NCBI GenBank assembly: GCA_030824585.1
Contig: JAVBXM010000034.1
Span: 1-38,406, forward strand
Direction: 5' to 3'
DNA length: 38,406 nucleotides
From: Phaeospirillum sp.
GTDB lineage: Bacteria > Pseudomonadota > Alphaproteobacteria > Rhodospirillales > Magnetospirillaceae
This document shows, one piece after another, positions 22,331-29,792 of this stretch. Below the pieces are notes generated by a model that saw only the letters and a program-made list of their open reading frames with translations, was not told the origin of the DNA and ran no database searches. Every line of letters starts with the position of its first letter. The stretch's first letter is position 1. The position numbers and the translations under genes are program-made.

Positions 22331-23056
22331 ATGGACACTACCAATCCGCATATCCTGGTCGTGGATGACGACCGCGAAATTCGCGACCTGCTGACCAAGT
22401 TCATGATGCGGCACGGCCTGAGGGTCAGTGCCGCCAAGGACGGCGTCGAGATGATGAAGGTGCTCGACGAGCGCCGCATCGATCTGGTCGTGCTCGACCT
22501 GATGCTGCCGGGCGAGGACGGGCTGTCGCTCTGCCGCCGCCTGCGGGAAACCCGCTCGGGCGTGCCGATCATCATGCTGACCGCCATGGGCGAGGATACC
22601 GACCGCATCGTCGGGCTGGAGATGGGCGCCGACGATTATGTCGCCAAGCCCTTCAATCCCCGGGAATTGCTGGCCCGCATCAAGGCGGTGCTGCGCCGGA
22701 CCCAGACCGCCGACGAGACCGCCCCCGACCGCGGCAGTACCAAGGTCGGCTTCCTGGGCTGGACCTTGGACCTGGCCAGCCGCGACCTGCTGTCGCCCGA
22801 CGGCGTGATGGTGGCGCTGTCGGCCGGCGAATTCGGCCTGCTGCAGGTGTTCGTCGAGCATCCCCGCAGGGTGCTGTCGCGCGACCAGTTGCTGGACTTC
22901 GCCCGGGGCCGTTCGGCGGTACCCTTCGACCGTTCCATCGACATCCAGGTCAGCCGCCTGCGCCGGCGCATCGGCGACGACGCCCGCGACCCGCAGATCA
23001 TCAAGACGGTGCGGGGCGGCGGCTATCTCTTCACCCCCGAGGTGGAACGGTCATGA
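22331..23056 (+). CDS. OmpR-family response regulator
   Basis: A 241-residue DNA-binding regulator. Residues 1-125 are the receiver with acidic pocket VVDDD, phosphoacceptor Asp56 in LVVLDLMLPG, the Thr switch in MLTAMG and Lys in YVAKPF. Residues about 140-235 are the winged-helix output domain ending IIKTVRGGGYLF. The stop overlaps the kinase ATG (ATGA), so the two are a cognate pair. No strong ribosome site is seen before ATG 22331. The pair plus the flavocytochrome gene form a likely operon. Confidence 0.95.
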   Translation: MDTTNPHILVVDDDREIRDLLTKFMMRHGLRVSAAKDGVEMMKVLDERRIDLVVLDLMLPGEDGLSLCRRLRETRSGVPIIMLTAMGEDTDRIVGLEMGADDYVAKPFNPRELLARIKAVLRRTQTADETAPDRGSTKVGFLGWTLDLASRDLLSPDGVMVALSAGEFGLLQVFVEHPRRVLSRDQLLDFARGRSAVPFDRSIDIQVSRLRRRIGDDARDPQIIKTVRGGGYLFTPEVERS

Positions 23057-24522
23057 GCCCCGCCCGCGCCACCGGCATCAGGCTGCTGCCCGACAGCGTG
23101 GTGGGCCGCACCGCGCTGGTGCTGGTCGCCGCCCTGATGATTTCGGTGGCGGCGGCGGTGGTGCTGTTCGCCATCCAGCGGCAGGAAGCGCTGGAATCCA
23201 TCGGCGGACGCAATGCCGCCGAGCGGGTGGCAGGATTGGTCACCCTGGCCGAGCAACTGGTGCCCGAGCTGCGCCGGGACACGCTCTCCAGCCAGGACAC
23301 TCCCAATTTCCGCGTCGGCTGGGGACCGCAGCCGGTCGCCCTGGACAACGAGGATTTCGGGCTGGCCGCCTATGTCCTCTCCGCCCTGGAAGAGGGGCTG
23401 GACGGACGCGAGATCAAGGTCTCCACCCGTCCCGGCCCGTTGCTGGGCGGCCCCAGCACCGGCATGGGGCGGGGACGGCACATGCACGGCCCCGGCGGCC
23501 CGGGAGGCCCGGGAGGCGGCCCCGGAATCGGCGGCGGTCCCGGCGGCGGCGGCGGCCGGGTAATCGGCCCGGCGCTGCGCGTCTCGGTGCATCTCAAGGA
23601 CGGCTCGTGGCTGAACGTGCTGGCCCCGCTGGATTTGGGCGATCCCTTGTGGCGGCCACGCTTCGTGGCGCCGCTGGTCATCGCCCTGGTGCTGGTCACC
23701 CTGGCCGGCCTGGTGGCGGTGCGGCGCGCCACCAGGCCCTTCGCCACCTTCGCCCAGGCCGCCGAACGCCTGGGAGTGGACGTCTCGGCGCCGCCCCTGG
23801 CCGAGGCCGGCCCGCGCGAGGTGCGGCAGGCGGCCCAGGCCTTCAACGTCATGCAAAGCCGCATCGCCCGCTTCGTGCAGGACCGCACCCAGATGCTGGC
23901 GGCCATCAGCCACGACCTCAAGACCCCCATCACCCGGCTGCGCCTGCGCGCCGAGTTCATGGACGACGACGACCAGCGCAACAAGATGCTGACCGACCTG
24001 GAGGAGATGGAGGCGATGATCGCCGCGACCCTGGCCTTCGCCCGCGACGACGCGGCCAGCGAGCCGCGCATCCGTCTCGACCTCGCCGCCATGGTCCAGG
24101 GCATGGTCGAGGACCTGGACGACCTGGGGGCCCGCTGCTCCTATGACGGGCCGGGTTCCCTGGTGGTCGAGGCCCGCCCGGCGGCCCTGAAGCGCGCCCT
24201 GGCCAATCTGATCGACAACGCCATCAAGTATGGCGGCGAGGCGGCGGTCACCCTGGGGACCGGCGGCCGCGACGCCCTGGTCACCATCGACGACCACGGG
24301 CCGGGCATCCCGGCGGAGGCGCGGGAACGGGTGTTCGCCCCCTTCGTGCGGCTGGAAGCCTCGCGCTCGCGCGATACCGGCGGCACCGGCCTGGGCCTTG
24401 CCGTGGCCCGCGCCGCCATCCGCGCCCATGGCGGCGACATCACGCTGTCCGACCGTCCGGGCGGCGGGCTGCGGGTGACGGTGAGCCTGCCGGGGATGGA
24501 AAGCCTGATAAGGGCGCATTGA
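23053..24522 (+). CDS. HAMP-containing sensor histidine kinase
   Basis: A 489-residue inner-membrane EnvZ-like kinase. TM1 spans about 18-40. The periplasmic domain of about 165 residues ends in a Gly/Pro-rich run at about 146-170 (GPGGPGGPGGG and GGGPGGGGG). TM2 is at about 208-226 and HAMP follows. The dimerisation/phosphoacceptor box AAISHDLKTPITRLR has His287. The ATPase boxes are NLIDNAIKYGG (N), DHGPGIP (G1) and GGTGLGLAVAR (G2). It should phosphorylate the adjacent regulator. The stimulus is unknown; neighbouring ferric-reductase-like cytochrome suggests redox or metal sensing, as inference. Confidence 0.95.
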   Translation: MSPARATGIRLLPDSVVGRTALVLVAALMISVAAAVVLFAIQRQEALESIGGRNAAERVAGLVTLAEQLVPELRRDTLSSQDTPNFRVGWGPQPVALDNEDFGLAAYVLSALEEGLDGREIKVSTRPGPLLGGPSTGMGRGRHMHGPGGPGGPGGGPGIGGGPGGGGGRVIGPALRVSVHLKDGSWLNVLAPLDLGDPLWRPRFVAPLVIALVLVTLAGLVAVRRATRPFATFAQAAERLGVDVSAPPLAEAGPREVRQAAQAFNVMQSRIARFVQDRTQMLAAISHDLKTPITRLRLRAEFMDDDDQRNKMLTDLEEMEAMIAATLAFARDDAASEPRIRLDLAAMVQGMVEDLDDLGARCSYDGPGSLVVEARPAALKRALANLIDNAIKYGGEAAVTLGTGGRDALVTIDDHGPGIPAEARERVFAPFVRLEASRSRDTGGTGLGLAVARAAIRAHGGDITLSDRPGGGLRVTVSLPGMESLIRAH

Positions 24523-25931: not shown

Positions 25932-28900
25932 TCAGCCCGGCTTCTTCGGCGGGGCCAGGGAGATTTCCACCTTGCCGGTGAAGGGGCGCGGCGCCGGCTT
26001 GGGCCGGGGCGGAGCCAGGGTGATGTCCTCGTCGGCCTCCAGCTTGGCCATGGCCGCCTCGACGGCGGCGGCCACCTTGGCCATTTCGGGATCGGCCCCG
26101 ATATCGGGCGCCTCGCCGGCCTCGGCCAGCAGGGCGCGCATGTCGTCCTCGGAAAAGCCGGTTCCGACGCCGATTTCCGGCAGCGGACCGGCGGGAAGCG
26201 GCGACTCGTCGGCGTCCTCAAGCATGGCGGCGATTTCGTCGTCGCTCATGGCCGCCCCCAGGCCAAACAGCGAGGATGGCTCGTCGGGAGCGCAGGGGAC
26301 CGCCTGCCGCGACAGGGCGGCCAGATCGTCATCGGAAAAACCGGTTTCCATCCCGATCCCGGGCGGCGTCTCGGCGGCAAAAGCGGGAGCCGGGGCGGAA
26401 GACTCGCCCTCTTCCTCCTCCTCACTCTCTTCCAGCAAGGCGGCGATATCGTCGTCGCTCATGGCGGTATGGAATGAGAAGTCGGGCTTGGGGGCCGTGT
26501 CGTCGGCCGCCAGTTGGGCATCGAACTCCTCTTCCTCCGTCGCCTCGGCCAACAGCGCCGACAGGTCGGAATCGGACAGGGTGGTGGAGGTCAGGTCGGC
26601 GGCGGGAGTGAACGGCTCCTCCTCGCTCTCGTCCTCGGGGTCCCCCATGGCGAGGATGGCGGCCAGATCGTCGTCGGACAGGGTACCTCTCGGCTCCACC
26701 GCCGCGGGGGCGTCGGCCTCCAGCGCCACAGCCTCTTCCTCAGGGAATCCTTCCCCCTCCGATGCGACCTCGGCCAGCAGGGCGGCAAGGTCGTCGTCGG
26801 ACAGGACGGTCGAGCCGAGATCGTCCGGGTCGACGGGAGCGCAGGGCGCGAAGTCCTCGTCCTCGCCCAGGTCCGCCACCTCGCCCATGGCCAGGATGGC
26901 CGCCATATCCTCGTCGGACAGGGCGCCTTCCAGCACCGGTGGCGGAAGCGGAGCCTCCTCCTCTGTTGCCCCCTCGCCGTCCAGACCGGCCTCGGCCGCC
27001 AGGGCGGCAAGGTCCTCGTCGGACAGGATGGCCGAGCCGAGGTCGCCCGGATCGGCGGGAGCGCAGGGCGCGAAATCCTCGTCCTCGCCCAGGTCCGTCA
27101 CCTCGCCCATGGCCAGGATGGCCGCCATGTCCTCGTCGGACAGGGTACCTTCCAGCACCGGCGGCGGCGAAGCCTCCTCCCCGGCGGTCCCTTCGCCGTC
27201 CGGACCGGCCTCGGCCGCCAGGGCGGCAAGGTCCTCGTCGGACAGGGCGGCCGAGCCGAGGTCGCCCGGATCGGCGGGAGCGCAGGGTGCGAAGTCCTCG
27301 TCCTCGCCCAGGTCCGCCACCTCGCCCATGGCCAGGATGGCCGCCATGTCCTCGTCGGACAGGGCAGCTTCGGAAACGGGCGGAGCCTCCTCCTCGGTGA
27401 CGGGGGGCTGATCCTCGAGGACCAGCGGCTCCTCGTCGGGGAGGGTTTCCCCGGAGACCGGTTCCTCGACCAGTTCGACCTCGGAAACGGGCTCGGCCTC
27501 GGAAACGGGCTCCTCGTCGGCCGGGAACGAGCGCATGACGTTCAGCAACTCGGTGGACAGCAGCGCCTGGGCATTGGGCTCGGGTGGCGGCTCGGGCGGC
27601 CAGGCCGGTTCCTCCATGGCCTCGGGCAGCGCCTCCATGGGCACCCGGCGGCGCAGGTGATAGACCGTCTGCTTGCCGAAATCCTTGGCCAGCGACAGCA
27701 CACCCACATATTCGCAGGCGAAACGCTCGACGAAATCCTCGCCCCGGTTCTGGGCCTCGGAGCGCATGGCGCTCTGCTCGGCGGTCAGCACCGCGACGAA
27801 TTGCTGGGTCGCATAGACGTGGCCGATCACCGTCACCGGCTCGAGCCTCGCGGCGCGGTTGATGTGGCTGCCGTAGAAGTTCTGCCGCCCGCAGATGGGA
27901 TCGATGGCCTGGAACACCGGGCCGGCATGCAGCGAGATGCGCAGGGAGAGGGGGTGGGGCAGCCGGTCGGCCAGTTCCTCGTCGGCCTTCAGCACCATTT
28001 CCTGCAGGGTCTGGGCGTATTCGGCCATGGGGGTGGCCTTGTCCATCACCGCGAAGATGGCGTCGCCCCAGGTGTTGATGGCCAGCGGCTGGTGTTCCAG
28101 CTCGGCCATGCCCTCGGAAATGATGCGCAGGAAGTCGAGGAATACCGGGGTGTGTTCCTCCTTCAGCTTGGAATAGCCGGCGATGTCGCAGAACATCATG
28201 GAGCGGATGACGCGGCCCTCGCCCTGCTCCTCGTCCTGGTCGCCGTCCAGGTCGGGCATGGCGGGCATGGAATCGCCGGCCAGGTCCGGGTTCTGCTGCA
28301 ACAATCCGTCCAGGTCGATGATGCGCAGCCGGGAGATGTCCTCCCACTGGTCGATGAAGTCGGCGGCCCCGCCGGCCAGCGAGCCGGGCATCATGTCCCA
28401 CACCGCCAGCAGGTAGGGCGCGGTGCGCAGGAAGGTGGCCCGCAGCGTCGCCAGCCCGTGCAGGCACTGGTTGGCGAAACGGTAGAGCATGCCGTGGCCG
28501 AGATAGCGTTCCTCGGTGGCGTAGGTCACCGTGTTGGCCAGCTTCAGCGCATTCCGAAAGCGCATTTCCCAGCGCGAACCGCCATAGCGCACGTTCTCGG
28601 CGATGAAGTCGTCGATGGCGTAGGGCATCACCACGTTCACCTCGGCGCCACGCTCCAGCATGGCCTCGATGAACAGCAGGTCCGAGCCGCAGGCGGCGGT
28701 GGAATAGCCCACCTGGGCGCCCAGTTCGTCCAGGGACTTGGCGATCTCGGCGCGAACGGCCGCCTCCAGCTCGGGCGGGAAGTGGGGGCCTTCGCCCGGC
28801 CGGTCCAGGGCGTGGCCGGTGAACACCACCACGGTGGGCGGCTTGATGACGTCGAAGACGGCGTCGGGAACGGCCAGCCCGCCTTCCTGCAACAGCGCCA

Positions 28901-29792
28901 GTTGCTTGAGCGCCGCCACGGTGCTGCCGTAATGGATGCCTTCCAGGGTACTGGCCCAGGCGAACGAGGCCAGGGCATCCTGCACCTCGCCCAGCAGCAG
29001 GTGGGCCTCGGCCACGGTGGCCAGCATCTGGTAGCGTTCTTCCGGCGAGAGCGTAAGGTCGGTCTCGGCGTGGGACACCCGGTCGCGGACCCGCCGGGCC
29101 AGTTCGCGGGCGCCTTCGTGGTCGCCCAGCAGCCACGAGGTCACCGCCGCGTCGATACCGTCGCGGGGCGCATTGCTGATGTGGAAGGCGCGCAGGAACA
29201 GCTCGCGGCAATGCTCGAGATCGGCGCGCGACCCCGAGGCCAGCCAGGCCTCGCGGAACACGCCGGCCAGGGAGGTGTAGGTCTCGGCGTCGGCACTGGC
29301 CACCAGCTTCTTGCCGCGCACCAGTTCCAGCGCCTCGGCCAGTTCGGCCATGGAGGCCAGGGTGTCCTGGTTGTCGGCCTGCTCCAGCCCCTCGACGGCG
29401 CGGCGCAGGCTGTTGTGCAGGCGGTGGAACGGCCCCTCGTCGATCAGGATGACGTCGAGAACCGGCTGCAGCAGCTTGCGCGCCTCGTCCACCGCGCCGG
29501 TCTGCGACAGCGCCACCGCGCCGAAGATGGCCAGCTTGAAGCTGTCGGGGTGTTGCCGCAGGCCCTCGCGCGCCGTGTCGTGGGCCAGGAAGTTCTGGCC
29601 CTCCTCCAGCAGCTCACGGGTAATCCGCTCCCACTCGGACAGGCTGCGGAGCGTATTTGCACCGGCACTGATCGGGGTCGAATCCGCCAAGGTGGGCCAA
29701 GCCTTTCCAATGGGTCTGAATACCTGTTTACCATGAGCCGGCCCGCCCCGGAAGGTCCCCCGGGACCACGGAGCGGAACAGCCCGCCCCCAC
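25932..29792 (-). CDS. TPR/class III cyclase protein with FliM-like motif array
   Basis: A frame of 1286 residues from GTG 29792; the true start may be further in (for example TTG in WPTLADST), as no ribosome site is clear. Residues about 45-330 are helical TPR-like repeats. Residues about 330-500 contain FTGHALDRPG, CGSDLLFIEAMLERGAEVNV and a conserved Arg-rich part typical of bacterial TPR-cyclase fusions. Residues about 530-720 are an adenylate/guanylate cyclase catalytic domain with the metal site MFCDIAGYSKL, NTWGDAIFAV and LRISLHAGPVF. From about 750 the chain is acidic and Pro/Ala-rich and holds twelve copies of (L/M/F)SDxDhAAhL. It should make a cyclic nucleotide in the cytosol. The tail motif resembles the CheY-binding peptide of FliM (LSQAEIDALL). 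Confidence 0.85.
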   Translation of the reverse strand: MGAGCSAPWSRGTFRGGPAHGKQVFRPIGKAWPTLADSTPISAGANTLRSLSEWERITRELLEEGQNFLAHDTAREGLRQHPDSFKLAIFGAVALSQTGAVDEARKLLQPVLDVILIDEGPFHRLHNSLRRAVEGLEQADNQDTLASMAELAEALELVRGKKLVASADAETYTSLAGVFREAWLASGSRADLEHCRELFLRAFHISNAPRDGIDAAVTSWLLGDHEGARELARRVRDRVSHAETDLTLSPEERYQMLATVAEAHLLLGEVQDALASFAWASTLEGIHYGSTVAALKQLALLQEGGLAVPDAVFDVIKPPTVVVFTGHALDRPGEGPHFPPELEAAVRAEIAKSLDELGAQVGYSTAACGSDLLFIEAMLERGAEVNVVMPYAIDDFIAENVRYGGSRWEMRFRNALKLANTVTYATEERYLGHGMLYRFANQCLHGLATLRATFLRTAPYLLAVWDMMPGSLAGGAADFIDQWEDISRLRIIDLDGLLQQNPDLAGDSMPAMPDLDGDQDEEQGEGRVIRSMMFCDIAGYSKLKEEHTPVFLDFLRIISEGMAELEHQPLAINTWGDAIFAVMDKATPMAEYAQTLQEMVLKADEELADRLPHPLSLRISLHAGPVFQAIDPICGRQNFYGSHINRAARLEPVTVIGHVYATQQFVAVLTAEQSAMRSEAQNRGEDFVERFACEYVGVLSLAKDFGKQTVYHLRRRVPMEALPEAMEEPAWPPEPPPEPNAQALLSTELLNVMRSFPADEEPVSEAEPVSEVELVEEPVSGETLPDEEPLVLEDQPPVTEEEAPPVSEAALSDEDMAAILAMGEVADLGEDEDFAPCAPADPGDLGSAALSDEDLAALAAEAGPDGEGTAGEEASPPPVLEGTLSDEDMAAILAMGEVTDLGEDEDFAPCAPADPGDLGSAILSDEDLAALAAEAGLDGEGATEEEAPLPPPVLEGALSDEDMAAILAMGEVADLGEDEDFAPCAPVDPDDLGSTVLSDDDLAALLAEVASEGEGFPEEEAVALEADAPAAVEPRGTLSDDDLAAILAMGDPEDESEEEPFTPAADLTSTTLSDSDLSALLAEATEEEEFDAQLAADDTAPKPDFSFHTAMSDDDIAALLEESEEEEEGESSAPAPAFAAETPPGIGMETGFSDDDLAALSRQAVPCAPDEPSSLFGLGAAMSDDEIAAMLEDADESPLPAGPLPEIGVGTGFSEDDMRALLAEAGEAPDIGADPEMAKVAAAVEAAMAKLEADEDITLAPPRPKPAPRPFTGKVEISLAPPKKPG
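26130..27370 (-). repeat. Twelve SDxD-hAAhL motifs, including a 3-copy ~220-bp tandem repeat
   Basis: Motif starts on the protein read LSDEDMAAIL, LSDEDLAALA (each pair three times, the last as LSDDDLAALL), then LSDDDLAAIL, LSDSDLSALL, MSDDDIAALL, FSDDDLAALS, MSDDEIAAML and FSEDDMRALL. The first six lie in three near-identical DNA units of about 216-222 bp (27147-27365, 26925-27146 and the one below), sharing the linker MGEVADLGEDEDFAPCAP. The units indicate recent duplication. Confidence 0.85.

Follow-up and report, generated by a model that had tools for sequence, protein, structure and literature searches.

What does the tail of a nucleotide cyclase hold on to, when it repeats one short peptide twelve times? 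The question is raised by a gene in the window analysed here, a stretch of 38,406 nucleotides from Phaeospirillum sp. (contig JAVBXM010000034.1, assembly GCA_030824585.1). This gene, on the reverse strand (25935..29792 plus stop, predicted GTG start), encodes a protein of 1286 residues in which a TPR-S domain, a Rossmann-like domain and a class III cyclase domain precede a long tail, and the tail carries 12 copies of [LMFI]SDx[DE]hxAhL (h, hydrophobic) at positions 26127-27362. A preliminary description had placed a twelve-motif array at 26130-27370, within a few bases of where we find it, and had likened its units to the N-terminal, CheY-binding peptide of FliM. Its observation is correct and stronger than it stated. 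Sequence comparisons lead us to suggest that the tail may be a multivalent docking array for CheY/Cle-like receivers, a reading that we find about as much reason to believe as to doubt.

The twelve motifs are all recovered by profile on the reverse strand. From the N-terminal side, they are LSDEDMAAIL (residues 811-820, 27333..27362), LSDEDLAALA (850-859, 27216..27245), LSDEDMAAIL (884-893, 27114..27143), LSDEDLAALA (923-932, 26997..27026), LSDEDMAAIL (958-967, 26892..26921), LSDDDLAALL (997-1006, 26775..26804), LSDDDLAAIL (1038-1047, 26652..26681), LSDSDLSALL (1072-1081, 26550..26579), MSDDDIAALL (1111-1120, 26433..26462), FSDDDLAALS (1152-1161, 26310..26339), MSDDEIAAML (1182-1191, 26220..26249) and FSEDDMRALL (1213-1222, 26127..26156); MSDDDIAALLEESEE and LSDDDLAALLAEVA are examples of the peptides. 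The consensus first proposed, (L/M/F)SDxDhAAhL, captures a real array and is too strict in detail: one copy has Ser-Glu, one has Glu at the second Asp, the first Ala is Ser in one copy and Arg in another, and in three copies Ser or Ala takes the place of the final Leu. When the tail was shuffled 2000 times, it held on average 0.017 motifs and never more than 1. A profile built from 49 different motif copies found, over the whole genome, the 12 sites of the array at E 1.2e-6 to 1.6e-3 and six others at E 0.16 to 7.3. A degenerate DNA pattern gave 11 matches in the same genome, nine in the cyclase gene and two inside other genes, which we take to encode sugar-nucleotide enzymes.

Part of the array is young. 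A tandem duplication with a unit of 219 bp, 2.7 copies and a 91% match covers positions 26768..27371, each full unit holding two motifs, which bears out the remark that three units had been duplicated almost exactly. The first 162 bp of these three long units are 90-96% identical, and the units group together with a support of 0.988, so the number of copies has recently changed in this lineage; the repeat units of other species do not always group by species. The tail itself (residues ~717-1286, 25935..27644, reverse strand) had been called disordered and acidic. It is acidic, with 27% Asp+Glu, and its disorder is predicted from composition and from a model of low confidence. This model, of a 951-residue orthologue (L007; mean predicted local distance difference test, pLDDT, 49.5; predicted template modelling score, pTM, 0.30), has five tail helices that start at the Asp after the Ser of its five motifs and one further tail helix, the C-terminal one. 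At this confidence, the model offers no evidence that the tail docks on the core.

Orthologues allow one to ask whether the motif or merely its acidity is kept. Matches to the cyclase protein occur in 27 of 60 related genomes (E<=0.001) and in 14 of the 17 within the genus. As to the variation in copy number that the preliminary description had anticipated, the 14 genus orthologues hold 5 to 12 motifs each by profile, 123 in all, counted at a threshold of 8 bits and with one orthologue (L006) ending at a contig edge. The array-bearing records of the named collection, which account for 6 of the 74 loci from the pattern scan described below, belong to Magnetospirillum, Paramagnetospirillum and Phaeospirillum. 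Six relatives from other genera (L015-L020) lack the array, five by profile and L019 by eye; their cores are 64-77% identical to that of the cyclase, and their tails have 26-99 residues in five cases and more in L019. One of them, L020, has a single related peptide, LGDDDIARLL, which lies six residues from the C-terminus and below the 8-bit threshold. Comparison of orthologues also reveals a conserved helix 3' of the array (DPEMAKVAAAVEAAMAKLEA, 26034..26093, reverse strand) and a conserved C-terminal end (GKVEISLAPPKKPG, 25935..25976, reverse strand). By eye, some relatives without the array (L015, L016, L019) have a similar helix close to their C-terminus, so that insertion of the array between the cyclase and an older C-terminal end is probable.

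The preliminary description had raised the case in which orthologues keep the acidic composition and lose the motif residues; this is not what is found. Among six close orthologues, the ratio of nonsynonymous to synonymous change (pN/pS) is 0.141 in the six C-terminal motifs, close to the 0.156 of the core, vs 0.376 in the linkers between and after those motifs. Over the whole tail the values are 0.284 for motifs and 0.470 for linkers, with repeat copies that align less surely. Since the motifs show no shortage of synonymous change (pS 0.40), it is the peptide itself that is conserved, and not merely the DNA or its acidity. Two peculiarities of orthologues deserve mention. In L003 and L014, separate Glu/Pro-rich repeats (EEEPAPIEEE and EDEPPVVE types) have expanded directly before the array, and the orthologue of a one-contig genome appears to be split by a shift of frame at about residue 145 (G009:C1:3639855-3640223 vs 3637888-3639867).

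How close is this conserved peptide to that of FliM? The available part of PMC5677366 gives LSQxEIDxLL as the conserved CheY-binding motif. FliM of this genome bears VLNQDEIDSLLGF, its own peptide being VLNQDEIDSLLGFDD, and in FliM read from 59 loci (30 from near relatives, 29 from the phylum) the motif contains E[IV][DN] in 58. The tail motifs fit the FliM-type register S/N-x-x-E-[IV]-x-A/S-L-L with Asp or Glu for Glu and Leu, Ile or Met for Ile/Val. The register is partly fixed by the regular expression that yielded a count of 116 cyclase motifs, and the genome and orthologue profile scans are free of that expression. Likeness was then scored against a background of 351,628 windows from 1,020 open reading frames (ORFs), real and antisense, of loci L072-L174, without 47 CheZ-like ORFs and the cyclase loci. 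With a scoring matrix of the cyclase motifs, only 3 of these windows reach the median of 17 distinct FliM motifs, only 12 the score of this genome's own FliM motif, and none that of the lone LGDDDIARLL of L020. The first background for a matrix of FliM motifs was inflated by CheZ-like C-termini, and the test was repeated without them; as a positive control, the FliM matrix puts the C-termini read as CheZ above all but 1 window. We take these C-termini to be those of CheZ, whose peptide is known to bind CheY.

A search made without reference to FliM led to chemotaxis from another side. A single scan of the genome_contigs collection (84,980 species) looked for pairs of cyclase-type motifs separated by 28-38 codons; its pattern excludes the Gln of FliM, accepts only Ala at position 7 and keeps the first Ser-Asp codons partly fixed. 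Of the 74 loci that it gave, 6 belong to this cyclase, sequence signatures assign 63 to CheA, and 5 are other (L078, L084, L101, L110, L126). The CheA loci (within L072-L145, e.g. L073:2011-4131) come from records labelled with gammaproteobacterial names or plain Proteobacteria, and they carry in the linker after Hpt, as read by regular expression, 2-4 tandem peptides of the ITDxEFEALLDxL type, e.g. ITDDEFEALLDQL, 28-57 residues apart. Being one homologous family, the 63 count as one independent case. Pfam finds Hpt, H-kinase_dim, HATPase_c and CheW in all eight that were scanned. P2 or another CheY-binding domain appears in none of the eight at E<=0.01, a negative that is provisional, to the detriment of our argument, because many P2 domains escape HMMER: the available part of PMC10542144 states as much, and adds that even HHpred leaves more than half of CheA sequences without P2. 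The word 'motif' is absent from the main text of that paper. In open-licence PubMed Central (PMC) literature we found no description of these linker repeats, the text string EFEALLD having no match, nor one of arrays of the cyclase type. Judging from their sequence, the CheA linker repeats may hold CheY. Among the other five loci, L084, L101 and L110 look like chance matches. An Armatimonadetes protein with an MshEN domain (L078:3188-4834) contains a long acidic stretch with several MSDEDIAAMF/ALL copies, and an Oscillospiraceae membrane protein without Pfam match (L126:4918-7998) has acidic repeats of similar grammar; this grammar is thus not confined to chemotaxis.

Another line of evidence comes from receivers. 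Over 190 genomes of the class, the motif profile retrieved a CheY-like receiver of 181 residues (L200), confirmed as a receiver by Pfam, that ends in TVSDDDIDAMLAQ and bears a tandem [YF]xGPx[RK]R element. In the available part of PMC5677366 this element is the ARR of Cle proteins, which binds cyclic di-GMP (c-di-GMP); there, the region that follows it is described as variable, and a FliM-like peptide in this place is not mentioned. We fetched 46 related receivers (L204-L219, where L204 is L200, and L240-L269, the 30 best-ranked loci from a longer list), and 45 of them have, by regular expression, at least one ARR-type element. A FliM- or cyclase-like peptide lies within the last 32 residues in 16 of the 46 (among L240-L259, L200, L207 and L215), vs none of the 1,020 background ORFs at an equal threshold once CheZ is set aside, a share that probably overstates the frequency among Cle-like proteins because the queries that fetched them bore the motif. 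In 13 of these 16, the peptide is exactly two residues from the C-terminus. Twelve are Gln forms, such as LSQDEINALL or LSQAEVEALL, and four are acidic (LSDAEIKALL, VSDDDIDAML, VTDDDIDAML, LSESDIMALL), with Asp at the place of the 'ID' Asp in 5/16. Both forms stand at the ends of the same kind of receiver, and hence an acidic residue can replace Gln. It is possible that these peptides dock in cis or in trans.

How would such an array work? Each motif would probably fold into an amphipathic helix, with its Ser as N-cap, and would use the alpha4-beta5-alpha5 face of a receiver as its docking site, like the N-terminal peptide of FliM. The motifs may act as independent beads on a string, where valency would matter rather than geometry, and a bound receiver may either gate the cyclase or simply be held beside it. 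In the genus, the best candidate partner would be a protein made of a receiver, an ARR element and a domain binding cyclic nucleotide monophosphates (REC-ARR-cNBD): this Cle-like receiver could read the product of the cyclase through its cyclic-nucleotide domain. Ordinary CheY would come second. The closest Cle-like receiver of Magnetospirillum has one ARR-type element and a long extension, and Pfam finds the receiver and the cyclic-nucleotide-binding domain in the three proteins scanned (L270-L272, out of loci L270-L275). A homologue exists in all 17 genus genomes and is nearly full length in 16; the copy of the genome under study (G000:C9, L220) ends at a contig edge after the receiver and ARR. 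The pairing of this protein with the cyclase tail is a hypothesis. In this genome, 78 receiver-like sequences match L200 at E<=1e-4, and other partners are therefore possible.

Several observations weigh against receivers as the partners of the tail. The Gln of LSQxEIDxLL is replaced: the 116 cyclase motifs have Asp in 108, Glu in 7 and Asn in 1, and since the regular expression behind them could not report Gln, it matters that none of the 123 motifs found by profile has Gln at this position either. The Asp of the 'ID' pair is present in just 4/116, the other motifs having among others Ala (68) and Glu (11), and this position was left free by the expression, which partly set the Ser (115/116) and the Ala at position 7 (110/116). 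This Asp is no detail, if one follows the available parts of two papers: in Caulobacter, a change of Ile-Asp abolishes binding of CleA/CleD (PMC5677366), and a salt bridge between Lys119 of CheY and Asp12 of the FliM peptide is kept for 90% of a simulation (PMC7012829). By the stricter FliM matrix, the median cyclase motif stands above all but 108 of the 351,628 windows, which is modest. The motif profile has no FliM match in this genome at E<=10 and none among PDB sequences, where its five matches are at chance level (E 1.2 to 9.2). The binding of receivers by the CheA and Cle peptides, by which we argue from analogy, is itself putative. The genus Cle-like receivers that we read do not themselves end in the motif, and the three genus genomes that lack the cyclase have FliM and REC-ARR-cNBD too, so the co-occurrence of either with the cyclase is uninformative. 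Finally, chemotaxis genes are absent from the ten flanking ORFs of the window that were scanned with Pfam, two of which have no match.

In the main rival, the motifs dock some partner that is no receiver, for instance a scaffold or a protein that organises the pole, and resemble FliM because short acidic helices capped by Ser share a common grammar; we hold it to be somewhat unlikely and still grant it real weight. It draws support from the profile hidden Markov model (HMM), which scores FliM no higher than 3.7 bits and CheA no higher than 6.8. Over 189 other genomes of the class, the profile found six with one match each at E<=0.01, among which we read and set aside ABC-F ATPase helices (L198, L199, L203), the N-terminus of ribosomal protein S1 (L201) and what appears to be a pyruvate:ferredoxin-oxidoreductase-like enzyme (L202); the sixth match is the C-terminus of the receiver L200. 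The S1-like N-terminus and the ABC-F-like helices score 14-18 bits in these other genomes. Helices unrelated to FliM thus outscore FliM, and part of the likeness must reflect the general grammar of a helix start capped by Ser. The same rival is favoured by the like arrays on the Armatimonadetes and Oscillospiraceae proteins, by the missing Asp of FliM, and by an alternative reading of the CheA repeats as SHOCT, a short C-terminal domain, which passes its Pfam cut-off of 27 in 2/8 (27.7 and 36.4 bits), GemA staying below its own. Yet a generic helix does not explain why 63 of the 68 scan loci other than the cyclase are CheA, even counted as one family, nor why peptides of this sort, intermediate forms included, end so many of the Cle-type receivers fetched. 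The resemblance to FliM proposed in the preliminary description is therefore partly supported: it is real in register and chemistry and in the matrix scoring, which does rank FliM high, but it fails on two hallmark residues, Gln and the 'ID' Asp, the HMM is blind to it, and its support from CheA and Cle proteins is indirect.

Two further rivals look inwards. The motifs might bind within the protein, on its TPR or Rossmann-like half, or between copies of it, leading to auto-inhibition or to multivalent self-assembly. TPR domains commonly bind short peptides, the array and TPR-S sit in one chain, and a range of 5-12 copies fits assembly driven by valency; but there are homologues, so similar in their core, that lack the array, and no docking is confidently predicted in the L007 model, whose quality is too low to settle the matter. 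We judge self-binding quite unlikely. Or else the array could have arisen neutrally, through the expansion of repeats in an acidic spacer rich in GC, as the lineage-specific duplication of the three long units and the other acidic repeats that expand beside the array in L003 and L014 might suggest. This is hard to reconcile with motif columns that change synonymously and little at the peptide level, and with 14 orthologues each keeping at least five copies while their linkers diverge. Such an origin is very improbable, and this reading is already disfavoured.

The rest of the protein is that of an enzyme. PF00211 (residues 531-688, 27729..28202, reverse strand) scores 47.2 bits for a cut-off of 21.9, and the closest PDB structures to the core model are class III cyclases (Foldseek E 3.4e-7), in agreement with the cyclase first assigned to this gene. 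In an alignment of 22 rows (A1, whose numbering we use), D497, D538 and R610 are invariant and N606 is kept in at least 90%; we take the two Asp to bind metal and N606 and R610 to be the catalytic Asn and Arg. The positions that we assume to select between ATP and GTP, N534 and N599, are both Asn in at least 90% of rows, which corresponds neither to Lys+Asp of the ATP type nor to Glu+Cys of the GTP type, so the product of the cyclase cannot be predicted. TPR-S (PF20308, residues 101-217, 29142..29492, reverse strand; 31.6 bits, cut-off 27.6) lies, by Pfam and model, inside a larger N-terminal half of helical repeats. Between the two, the secondary structure of the model has a Rossmann-like alpha/beta domain at residues ~320-493 (28314..28835, reverse strand), which has no Pfam match up to E 1 and which we read as presumably SLOG-like; up to the same E, Pfam also finds no P2 or CheY-binding domain in the protein. 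The AlphaFold model of the core (706 residues, 22 sequences) has a mean pLDDT of 81.5 and runs from helical repeats through the Rossmann-like domain to the cyclase fold.

The cyclase gene lies between a group of SET, pyridoxal-phosphate (PLP) decarboxylase and GyrB-like genes and a ferric-reductase-like gene with a two-component pair. We checked the neighbourhoods of the cyclase in eight relatives for these window genes specifically: the GyrB-like gene is well matched in 5/8 and the SET and PLP-decarboxylase genes in 3/8, and in L183 the close neighbours of the window cyclase are all absent. PADLOC gave no match to anti-phage defence. The two-component pair, a response regulator and a histidine kinase, occupies 22331-24522, directly before the ferric-reductase-like gene. 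Elsewhere in the window, positions 1349-2225 contain tandem repeats of 27, 54, 108 and 162 bp with a recurring GTCGTTGCCG unit, possibly part of what we take to be an RTX-like protein.

If the motifs bind receivers, the cyclase would be connected to the chemotaxis branch by short linear peptides and not by a fused domain, and the tail would be a natural multivalent receiver trap, the capacity of which differs between species. The same principle could account for the way in which CheA kinases without P2 hold CheY, and for the FliM-like peptide at the end of many Cle-type receivers. One may speculate further that FliM-type peptides are a general currency of receiver docking in Proteobacteria, used singly in FliM, CheZ and the C-termini of Cle proteins or in arrays in P2-less CheA and the cyclase, and that in Magnetospirillum the array gathers REC-ARR-cNBD proteins at a source of second messenger, where phosphorylation, c-di-GMP and cyclic nucleotide would be read together and copy number would set capacity. 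Taken jointly, these two proposals are unlikely to hold as stated.

Several known systems can be compared with the tail. Like FliM, the cyclase uses a short peptide in a flexible segment and keeps the register hydrophobic-Ser-x-x-acidic-hydrophobic-x-Ala-Leu-Leu, but FliM has one copy where the cyclase tail has 5-12. The C-terminal peptide of CheZ falls in a common class with that of the cyclase by the FliM matrix, whereas it is a single copy at the end of a phosphatase and the cyclase matrix ranks it weakly, 735 of the 351,628 windows reaching its median. The CheA repeats resemble the array in being tandem N-capped acidic amphipathic peptides in a linker; unlike the cyclase motifs they have Phe at position 5 and usually a Leu three residues after the LL, and they sit on a kinase. 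The ends of Cle-type receivers, in contrast, offer one copy on the receiver rather than an array on an enzyme, and yet they hold the forms nearest in sequence to the cyclase motif: VSDDDIDAML, LSDAEIKALL and LSESDIMALL.

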